From: Klebsiella sp. RHBSTW-00484
Lineage (GTDB): Bacteria > Pseudomonadota > Gammaproteobacteria > Enterobacterales > Enterobacteriaceae
Reading direction: 5' to 3'
Assembly: GCF_013705725.1 (NCBI RefSeq)
Contig: NZ_CP055481.1
Span: 2,666,001 to 2,730,000 of the forward strand
DNA: 64,000 nt
The stretch's first letter is position 1; the number at the start of each line of letters is the position of its first letter. The notes below the pieces were generated by a model. The model searched no databases. It was not told the origin of the DNA and saw nothing but the letters and a program-made list of their open reading frames with translations. Made by a program: the position numbers and the translations under genes. Shown here in pieces: positions 4,768 through 47,540 of the stretch.

Positions 4768-4906
4768 TATACCCTAAATAATTCGAGTTGCAGGACAAGG
4801 CACTCGTGCCTTGAACAGCGCTTGCGCTGGCCCCGAAGGGGCGAGGCCCAGGGATGGGCCGAGTTATTGCCAACGCACATGCAACTTGAAGTATGACGGG
4901 TATATA
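4768..4906 (+). repeat. about 139-bp palindromic intergenic repeat, copy 1
   Basis: The unit begins TATACCCTAAATAATTCGAG and ends with the near-complement CTTGAAGTATGACGGGTATA, giving a long imperfect hairpin. Its core contains nested short dyads such as AAGGCACTCGTGCCTT and GGCCCCGAAGGGGC. Near-identical or related units occur at 26237-26370, 47403-47540 and 53825-53955. It has no coding potential and looks like a non-autonomous, MITE-like enteric repeat. The DNA to its right (4907-4999) holds only the promoter region of the next gene. Confidence 0.88.
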
Positions 4907-35913: not shown

Positions 35914-36385
35914 AGTGATGCTTGTCCTGCTGCTGGTGCTGCTCGGTGGCTGCAAAGAGGAAAAGCTGGCGCGCGGCGAGGCGGCACCCGCGCTGGCGGC
36001 GTTTGATTTGCAGGGGGAGTCGGCCAGCCTTGAGCGCTGGCAGGGCAAGGCGGTGTATCTTAATTTCTGGTCATCAAGCTGCGGCGGCTGCCTGGCGGAG
36101 ATGGATACCTTACAAGCGCTCAGCCAGCGCTGGCCGGATAAGCTGGTGGTGGTGGGCGTTAATACCGACCCGGAATCAGTCGATATCGCGCCGCTGTTAG
36201 CTAAGCATGGCATCAGCTATCCGGTGCTGCGCGATCAGCTCAAAATGACCCAGGAGCGCTATCAGGTTATCGGCACCCCAACGTCGGTATTGATTGATAG
36301 CCATGGCACGGTGCTGGATTTGCATCAGGGCCTGCGCAAGTCCGAGGAGCTACAGACGGTGTTTGGCCAGCTGGCGCAGAAATAG
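35900..36385 (+). CDS. TlpA-like thioredoxin-fold lipoprotein
   Basis: A 161-residue lipoprotein with lipobox LLGGC (C18) and a TlpA/ResA fold. The redox motif is C61-G-G-C64 in NFWSSSCGGC, with cis-Pro in VIGTPTSVLID. It probably reduces periplasmic thiols of the Fe-S or P19 components. Last gene of the operon, ending 39 bases before IS110 copy 2, which may supply or remove the terminator. Confidence 0.9.
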   Translation: MRMPKVMLVLLLVLLGGCKEEKLARGEAAPALAAFDLQGESASLERWQGKAVYLNFWSSSCGGCLAEMDTLQALSQRWPDKLVVVGVNTDPESVDIAPLLAKHGISYPVLRDQLKMTQERYQVIGTPTSVLIDSHGTVLDLHQGLRKSEELQTVFGQLAQK

Positions 36386-36509
36386 TTTCCCCACGCGCGA
36401 GCAGTCTGATGGTTTTGTAGCCCGATGTGATGGACACCTCCCACCTTACGGCATCAGAACGTGCCAGACTGGAAGTGTTACCTGCAGTCCACAGGAGGAG
36501 GTGTCCACC

Positions 36510-37532
36510 ATGAATATTAAACGTATCGGTCTTGACCTGGCAAAAAATGTCTTTCAGATCCATGCTGTGGATCACCATGAACATGTCGTCGTGCGGAAAT
36601 CTCTCCGCCGCGCCCACATGCACGCTTATTTCTCTCAGCTGGCTCCCTGCACCGTCGGGATTGAAGCCTGCGCGTCATCCCACTACTGGGCCCGCGAACT
36701 CACCCGCATGGGACATACCGTGCACATTATTCCCCCGAAGTTTGTTAAGCCCTACCTCAGGGGCAACAAGAATGATGCCAACGATGCCGAAGCCATCTGT
36801 GAAGCCATCAGCCGCCCCGCCATGCGCTTCGTCGCGGTTAAGACAGAGCGCCAGCAGACTCTTCAGGCTGAGCATCGCGTGCGGGCCAGAGTGATAAAAA
36901 GCCGCACGGCGCTGTGCAACGAGATACGGGGCTTTCTGGGCGAATTCGGCGTGGTGCTGCCGGTCGGCATCAGCCAGTTGCGTAAGGCGCTGCCGGAGAT
37001 ACTGTCACAGCAGGAGCAGTGGGATGACCGGTTTATGCGCCTGCTGTGCGAGCTGGCCGAAGAGCTGCGGATGCTGGATGACCGGGTGGCGGGGCATGAC
37101 CGGCGGCTCGCAGAGGCGGCGCGGGAAGATATCTGCATCCAGCGGCTGATGAAAATAGAAGGTATCGGCGTGATAACCGCCAGCGCGATGGTGGCGTTGT
37201 TGGGTGACGCGACGCAGTTTAAGAACGGTCGGGAGATGGCGGCTTATGTGGGGCTGGTTCCCCGGCAGCACTCAAGCGGCGGTAAGCAGCAGCTGGGGCA
37301 TATCAGCAAGCGGGGTGACAGCTACCTGCGTACGCTGGTCATCCACGGGGCACGGTCAGTTCTGAAGACATGTGCAGGCAAAGAAGACCGGCGGAGCCAG
37401 TGGCTGCAGTCGGTGGCGGAAAGACGGAACCGGAATATCGCGACGGTGGCGCTGGCGAACAAGAATGTGCGGATAGCGTGGGCGGTGATGAGTCGCGGAG
37501 AAGATTACCATGGTTCACGGGTCGCCGGTTAA
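36510..37532 (+). CDS. IS110-family transposase (copy 2)
   Basis: A 340-residue DEDD recombinase, start ATG 36510 after AGGAGG. The open frame extends 72 codons upstream through the element end and the flank, but that extension is not conserved protein. Residues V49, A61, H72 and R84 differ from copy 1; the active-site acids D9, E52, D89, D92 and the Tnp20 serine region S255-S256 are intact, so both copies look functional. Confidence 0.95.
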   Translation: MNIKRIGLDLAKNVFQIHAVDHHEHVVVRKSLRRAHMHAYFSQLAPCTVGIEACASSHYWARELTRMGHTVHIIPPKFVKPYLRGNKNDANDAEAICEAISRPAMRFVAVKTERQQTLQAEHRVRARVIKSRTALCNEIRGFLGEFGVVLPVGISQLRKALPEILSQQEQWDDRFMRLLCELAEELRMLDDRVAGHDRRLAEAAREDICIQRLMKIEGIGVITASAMVALLGDATQFKNGREMAAYVGLVPRQHSSGGKQQLGHISKRGDSYLRTLVIHGARSVLKTCAGKEDRRSQWLQSVAERRNRNIATVALANKNVRIAWAVMSRGEDYHGSRVAG

Positions 37533-37561
37533 CCGACGCCCCGTGAGCCATGCAGTAAAAA

Positions 37562-37770
37562 GAGCAGTAACCCTGTCGTGAGATTGCGAAGCGATTTAGC
37601 GTGATGAGTAACCGGTAAGACCAGCACCTGAGAAATCCGGCCTGTCCGAAGGCTCCCTGCGAAGCAAAGCCGATAGCCCGAAAGGAAGCAGGTGCGCAGA
37701 ACACATCATGGCCCGGGTACGACGGTACCGAAAGAGAGGCCGGATATACGAACGCAACTTACCCTGGTGA
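37562..37770 (+). ncRNA. predicted bridge RNA/seekRNA of IS110 copy 2
   Basis: The 280-base non-coding 3' end holds two loop structures. Loop 1 is closed by GCACCTG (37624-37630) and CAGGTGC (37689-37695). It exposes CCTGTCCG (37641-37648), the complement of the right target half CGGACAGG, and TAGCCCG (37674-37680), identical to the left half. Loop 2 has the hairpin GGTAC-GACG-GTACC (37716-37729), flanked by CACATC (37702-37707), complement of GATGTG at the left element end, and ATATACG (37744-37750), identical to the right element end. This is the layout expected of an IS1111 guide RNA downstream of the transposase. Ends are approximate. Confidence 0.65.
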
Positions 37771-37813
37771 CTCACACAAAAAATAGCTTGCATCACGGGA
37801 GGTGTCCATATAC

Positions 37814-37930
37814 GGACAGGCGCTTTAGCGCCGCCTCCGGGAAAATAGCTTTCAGTGGGCTTTCGTTGATTTCCCGGTGGCGTAGTTGCTTCCCGGGCTA
37901 CAGGTTCGTCATCGTCTGCCACCCGGGATG
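37814..37930. repeat. REP remnants between IS110 copy 2 and the transaldolase gene
   Basis: GGACAGGCGCTTTAGCGCC with GCCTCCGGGAA completes the REP split by the element. A second imperfect unit (TTCCCGGTGGCGTAG ... CCCGGGCTACAGG) follows. Confidence 0.75.
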
Positions 37931-47402: not shown

Positions 47403-47540
47403 TATACCCTAAATAATTCGAGTTGCAGGACAAGGCACTTGTGCCTTGAACAGCGCTTGCGCTGGCCCCGGAGGGGCGAGGCCCAGGGATGGGCCGAGTA
47501 TTGCCAACGCACAAGCAACTTGAAGTATGACGGGTATATA
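47403..47540 (+). repeat. palindromic intergenic repeat, copy 2 of variant A
   Basis: Almost base for base the same as the 4768-4906 unit, including the AAGGCACTTGTGCCTT inner dyad and the GGCCCCGGAGGGGC hairpin. Lies between transketolase and the PHP phosphoesterase. Confidence 0.9.

Follow-up and report, generated by a model that had tools for sequence, protein, structure and literature searches.

A predicted four-guide RNA in an IS1111-type insertion sequence of Klebsiella, with target and donor guides that covary among relatives

Introduction

Does the non-coding 3' end of an IS1111-type element carry an RNA that can be read against both the site in which the element sits and the ends of the element itself? 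The question is raised by one locus in the window, by which we mean the whole 64,000-nucleotide stretch of Klebsiella DNA that was analysed. An initial annotation, made from the letters alone, had read in this 3' end two segments matching the target and two matching the element ends, each pair in a loop of its own. The 3' location of the RNA, the order of its target guides and the requirement for the RNA in IS1111 elements are already published, and the mechanism has been known since 2024. As to the donor side, the parts of PMC11208160 drawn on here give 93.0% as the share of IS1111 elements in which a bridge RNA was predicted, name a multi-loop as the place of possible donor-binding bases, and support donor guiding in IS1111 by prediction together with six IS110 and IS1111 elements inspected manually. 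In the portion of PMC11187229 used, the main-text Results and Discussion give no description of donor guides in seekRNA elements, and a search of the open-licence literature found no covariation test of IS1111 donor guides. What is added here is that the donor guides covary with the element ends among IS1111 relatives.

Results

The element lies at 36423..37812 of the + strand (CGATGTG ... ATA), inside a REP sequence, and consists of a gene for a 340-aa DEDD transposase (36510..37532, +), 13-bp subterminal inverted repeats and a 280-nt 3' non-coding end (37533-37812), as against 87 nt of non-coding sequence upstream of the gene. These coordinates place a 7-bp and a 3-bp extension outside the left and right repeats, the latter of which we take to be the IS1111 convention, and the 26 near-identical copies have identical ends; if the CG core were assigned to the right side, the element would span 36425-37814. 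In a comparison made on L002, which is the window element itself, the left repeat ATGGACACCTCCC (36430..36442, +) matches the right repeat GGGAGGTGTCCAT (37797..37809, +) at 13/13 positions, with CGATGTG and ATA outside. The left target half, TAGCC plus the CG core (36418..36424, +), and the right target half, the CG core plus GACAGG (37813..37820, +), both belong to the REP, and GATGTG at the left element end (36424..36429, +), placed by script and by covariation, is the donor half with which the right donor guide would pair.

For IS1111 elements, the parts of PMC11187229 used here describe a 7-bp left extension, transposases of 330-350 aa and, within their C-terminal domain, the motif GL-P----S(t)G. 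The reading frame in the window has the corresponding length, the motif as GLVPRQHSSG, and DEDD_Tnp_IS110 and Transposase_20 domains; PF01548 and PF02371 matched above the Pfam cut-off, and NCBIfam NF033542, 'IS110 family RNA-guided transposase', matched as well. The RNA lies downstream of the gene with its right guide first, which sets it apart from IS110 proper (RNA upstream, left guide first), and its two target and two donor guides share the core and all covary, as expected of a bispecific bridge RNA. We put at roughly 0.94 the probability that the element is an RNA-guided insertion sequence of the IS1111 type whose 3' RNA is a seekRNA/bridge-RNA locus. A second copy in the window (L015; 20927..22316, -, in the 36425-37814 convention) also sits in a TAGCCCG/GACAGG site.

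The position search was run by script within 36380-37850. It recovered every coordinate that had been annotated for the four guide segments, each of which occurs once in the 3' non-coding end. The right target guide CCTGTCCG (37641..37648, +) is complementary to CGGACAGG (37813-37820), and TAGCCCG (37674..37680, +), the left target guide, recurs at 36418 as the target itself. On the donor side, the right guide CACATC (37702..37707, +) faces GATGTG at 36424, and the left guide ATATACG (37744..37750, +) recurs at 37808 as the right element end. GCACCTG was found at 37624, CAGGTGC at 37689, GGTAC at 37716 and 37724, and GTACC at 37725. The annotated right-before-left order of the target segments holds (37641 precedes 37674), and it is not new because it has already been published for IS1111 (PMC11187229).

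Single short segments of this kind do arise randomly, as an explanation of the guide matches by chance would have it: when 37533-37797 was dinucleotide-shuffled 20,000 times, 71 of the shuffles contained CCTGTCCG, 746 TAGCCCG, 434 CACATC and 220 ATATACG. Two or more of the four came together in 24/20,000 shuffles and three or more in 0/20,000, and when random window sites served as pseudo-targets, 2/18,932 found a match there on both sides, of 7 nt on the left and 8 nt on the right. Since three of the four segments never coincided in the shuffles, and since the guides of relatives covary in permutation tests that chance failed (see below), we consider coincidence next to impossible.

Folds of single sequences beat shuffles only moderately (z -2.33 and -1.36), that of the window RNA (37619-37765) being unexceptional at z -1.36, and in its minimum-energy form the target guides partly pair together; because the lone folds are so modest, covariation was used. 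From an alignment of 26 relatives, flanks and ends excluded, RNAalifold gave 24 pairs, of which 18 showed two-sided changes. The structure tested (18 pairs in four helices) was paired in 94.0% of 466 cells as against 69.2% after shuffling, a figure favoured by the derivation of the structure from the same sequences; more weight attaches to the two-sided changes, seen in 115 cells against 33.6. The covariation score was 0.659 against 0.189 in shuffles, and 0/500 shuffles came as high in score or in pairing; the observed number of further pair types was reached by 2/500, and slid controls were paired in at most 43.7%.

Folded across relatives, as the initial annotation had suggested, the RNA thus supports both loops. 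The predicted guide RNA domain spans 37598..37760 (+; covariance model R1, 117.5 bits, with the window element in the training set as L002). A small 5' hairpin GGT...ACC (37614..37622, +) is paired in 98.7% of cells, with two-sided changes in 2/3 pairs. The helix of the target loop, GCACCTG (37624..37630, +) with CAGGTGC (37689..37695, +), has two-sided changes in 7/7 pairs and is paired in 86.8% of cells, and it encloses both target segments as had been claimed: the right guide stands on the 5' side, then a covarying hairpin GGCT...AGCC (37651..37671, +; two-sided changes in 4/4 pairs), then the left guide on the 3' side. Equally in line with the claim, the donor segments flank a hairpin (37710..37741, +), in which GGCC (37710-37713) pairs with GGCC (37738-37741) around the GGTAC/GTACC stem; fold and covariation agree here, the GGCC stem being 100% paired with two-sided changes in 2/4 pairs. 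Upstream of the folded RNA, a box GAGATTGCGAAGC (37580..37592, +), conserved by eye in the alignment, is possibly the 5' part of the guide RNA.

RNAalifold also paired a GATG box (37603-37606) with CATC of the donor guide. This helix was omitted as unproven because the next two bases, judged by eye, fail to follow the donor guide; pair 48-95 was likewise omitted from the tested structure. The conserved box (37603-37608 of the window) is complementary to the donor-guide CATC and could sequester the donor guide, and no covariation between the two was seen. At the gathering threshold, Rfam gave no match within the element. Elsewhere in the window, two similar repeats at 4788-4877 and 47423-47515 (AATAATTCGAGTTGCAGG ... 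GCAACTTGAA) score as Rfam AaHKsRNA22 and are probably an unrelated dispersed repeat.

An imperfect palindrome of 44 nt (37509..37552, +), also visible in reverse-strand self matches, spans the stop codon of the transposase gene. Four other variants (the L026, L027, G014 and G010 copies) retain it with compensatory changes, and in the alignment inspected by eye it is absent from the G370 copy; perhaps it is a signal for RNA processing or mRNA 3' stability.

The initial annotation had further proposed that guides be compared with the flanks of relatives, and this comparison, extended to the ends, bears it out. The RNA model was searched in 133 loci chosen as likely carriers of an element, and in the window; 97/100 and 33/34 sources matched, with no match in L054, L060, L069 and L204. 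Counted together with the later search described below, they set aside 33 loci (host copies L001-L026, L028-L030 and L128; extras L175, L176 and L181). After 22/136 matches had been dropped, the 114 kept formed 53 clusters at an RNA similarity of 85%, one of them the window's; the second copy in the window had been skipped before this filtering. Columns of the alignment, as defined by the rows of the window and L089, set where each guide is read. In these 53 clusters, the match of each guide to its own flank or end exceeded that in all 20,000 permutations: own and permuted values were 0.860 and 0.297 for the left target guide, 0.629 and 0.276 for the right target guide, 0.902 and 0.722 for the right donor guide, and 1.000 and 0.804 for the left donor guide, the permuted donor values being high already because donor ends vary little. 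Matches were perfect in 25 (left target), 12 (right target), 28 (right donor) and 53 (left donor) of the 53, and the full core dinucleotide was matched in 40/53 by the left target guide, 38/53 by the left donor guide and 26/53 by the right target guide. Against the guide reading, the right target guide matched at most 2/6 bases in the fixed register in 16/53 clusters; by eye, several of these are slips of one or two bases (for example L038, L102, L103), and others differ (L043, L157).

The training alignment had been extracted with a left-donor-guide pattern and so favours AT.TA, and the other end types (AGA, ACA) come from loci outside it. For 32 clusters absent from the training alignment, the values were 0.844 against 0.295 and 0.630 against 0.300 for the left and right target guides, and 0.887 against 0.734 and 1.000 against 0.754 for the right and left donor guides, again with no permutation as high. 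When disjoint leaf pairs on the transposase tree were compared, own guides did better than swapped ones in 21/25 (left target), 18/24 (right target), 13/18 (right donor) and 8/8 (left donor) pairs; the remainder were ties and 0 were reversed. A later model search of 39 left-out loci matched 18, of which only L051 passed the same end filter. This locus, with a weak model match (32.8 bits), fits poorly, agreeing at 0/5 left target, 0/5 right donor, 5/6 right target and 3/3 left donor bases, and its ends may be misplaced or its RNA different; with it included (54 clusters), the values become 0.844 and 0.633 for the left and right target guides and 0.885 and 1.000 for the right and left donor guides, still above all 20,000 permutations.

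Side by side with these counts stands a group of IS1111 relatives (loci L136-L139, L141, L143, L145, L147, L149-L152, L154) with TAAC as left and GCC...TAAG-like sequences as right flanks, in which the left guides likewise read TAAC. Such flanks resemble integron attC sites.

The donor guides bear on a rival explanation, namely that the target half is RNA-guided whereas the ends are recognised by the transposase via the inverted repeats, the donor segments being non-guiding leftovers of the ends. Clear inverted repeats, mostly of 11-14 bp among the relatives listed, and the conservation of the donor ends fit this explanation, and so does the finding, in the parts of PMC11187229 used, that an 82-nt RNA sufficed for ISEc11 transposition, an RNA that by its geometry should hold only the target loop. 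Against it, the left donor guide equals the right element end in 53/53 clusters, and parsimony counts nine changes of that end on the tree, with the joint count for end and guide also nine; moreover, position 4 of 5 in the right donor guide matches in 51/53 clusters against 43% expected. We therefore judge end recognition by protein alone to be unlikely and prefer a four-guide RNA.

Within the host genome, a DNA search found at least 26 copies at 98-100% and one at 77% (L027), the number being a lower bound with 40/66 first-look candidates scored. The left flank is TAGCCCG in 27/27, always in the same orientation relative to the REP. The six bases right of the core in the 26 near-identical copies are GACAGG in 17 and GACAGA in 4, with GGCAAG, AACAGG, GGCAGG, GTCAGC and GTATAA once each; GACAG, thus present in 21/26, is also found at L027. 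A base-by-base comparison covering 25 copies, with the window element among them, showed no change in any of the four guide segments, and neither did the displayed 3' end of L026; in L012 and L014 a C>A change at 37695 breaks the outermost pair of the target-loop helix. Of intact sites, the genome offers 110 of the GTAGCCCGGACAG kind and 101 of the GTAGCCCGGNTAAG kind, and 21 copies occupy GACAG-type sites (GTAGCCCGGACAG) as against 0 in GTAGCCCGGNTAAG (Fisher one-sided p 2.9e-6), a preference that agrees with the prediction of the right guide. A collection of E. coli genomes gave no near-identity match to the element.

REP sequences are known IS targets (PMC1525189, in the part used), and the transposase protein might itself recognise REP DNA or its hairpin, with the guide matches as captured REP fragments. 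We hold this to be highly improbable, since from the same RNA positions the guides of relatives follow many targets that are not REP, and since L013 sits in TAGCCCG/GTATAA, where the right half of the REP is missing and 1/6 right bases match. That copy also weighs against the guide-RNA reading, under which it is a natural off-target, and suggests that left half and core can suffice for insertion. The 77% copy L027 has an open transposase frame and a paired target-loop helix, and its right target guide matches 4/6 bases of its own site, a perfect site for it occurring once in its genome. Compared with the guides of the 26-copy family, whose ends it also has, those of L027 for the right target and right donor are a poorer fit to the L027 site and end, and the copy may have been moved in trans by that family.

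Relatives that sit elsewhere with unchanged segments had been named beforehand as the outcome that would count against the guide reading; the opposite came out. A search of the genus gave matches in 8/20 genomes, the host genome counted. One congener (G014) carries a 79% relative in seven copies; there the right target guide is CTTATCCG in place of CCTGTCCG, reading CTTATC, and the copies occupy GATAAG (4), GGTAAG (2) and GACAAG (1). Intact sites in that genome number 50 for NTAAG and only 3 for GACAG; the guide thus fits the local REP type, and by the same supply the sites of G014 alone cannot separate guide choice from availability. In G370 (a 74% relative, two copies), both guides have changed, the left to CAGGC and the right to TTTATC, and 2/2 copies stand behind CAGGC in the site CAGGC-CG-GATAAG, where 5/6 right bases match. 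Against the guide reading, the right guide of a partial copy (L083), like that of L027, matches 4/6 bases of its own flank.

Discussion

The closest counterparts of the window element are the IS1111 seekRNA elements ISEc11, ISPa11 and ISKpn4, which, in the parts of PMC11187229 used, share with it a 3' non-coding RNA, subterminal repeats, a similar transposase length and the order of top-strand before bottom-strand guide. The seekRNA of ISEc11 is proven according to the same source; its locus (L201) matched our RNA model at 85.4 bits with matching guides at the same positions, although its transposase is ~42% identical to that of the window and its target is another. ISPa11 targets REP, as the window element does (PMC11187229, as excerpted). 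IS5075/IS4321 belong to the same family, with a model match of 58.4 bits (L205) and guides that mostly fit their ends and target, but with a transposase ~38% identical and a different target. The bridge RNAs of IS621 and the IS110 group likewise have four guides, two loops and a shared core, whereas their RNA lies upstream of the gene, their left guide comes first and long inverted repeats are lacking (PMC11208160, in the part used; PDB 8wt6); the IS621 transposase resembles that of the window in its C-terminal part (E 1.4e-6). Among solved structures, the best sequence match is ISCro4 (PDB 9t56; E 4.9e-8), with the similarity mostly in the C-terminal domain.

By analogy with these published relatives, excision would join both element ends in a circle and so create a promoter for the transposase gene and the 3' RNA. 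The joined ends read TTGCAT (-35-like, 37788-37793, within a junction-promoter region at 37788..37812, +), a 17-nt spacer and TACGAT, and TTGC or TTGA recurs at 16-17 nt in 40/53 clusters of relatives; a junction promoter across the circularised ends is likely on sequence grounds, and its -10 box would be formed by TA, the core and AT. The RNA (about 37598-37760) would bind the DEDD transposase, with a loop each for reading the target and for reading the joined ends. Around the CG core that they share, two pairings would form in the 3' part of the RNA: CACATC with the left end of the element, and ATATACG with the complementary strand of the right end. At this core the enzyme would exchange strands and insert the element in a single orientation. 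Expression, binding, circle and strand exchange are thus carried over from other systems; the positions, the covariation of fold, targets and ends, the one orientation and the mostly single site type in the host genome are observed here.

A wider proposal is more tentative, and we think it rather doubtful: that the guide RNAs of IS1111 elements are four-guide RNAs working as two processed pieces, a target half of ~80 nt (the published short seekRNA) and a donor half of ~70 nt that binds the ends and is under natural selection, as suggested by its covariation with them, even though the target half alone sufficed on overexpression, and that the target half of this clade is further adapted to the commonest REP type of each host.

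In conclusion, the reprogramming of guides between congeners provides a clean natural experiment, and the data set of 53 clusters shows donor guides tracking the element ends in the IS1111 group. By its geometry, the 82-nt RNA of ISEc11 should carry the target half alone, so that what the donor half does in IS1111 elements becomes directly testable, and the clade is a source of compact recombinases with readable targets.
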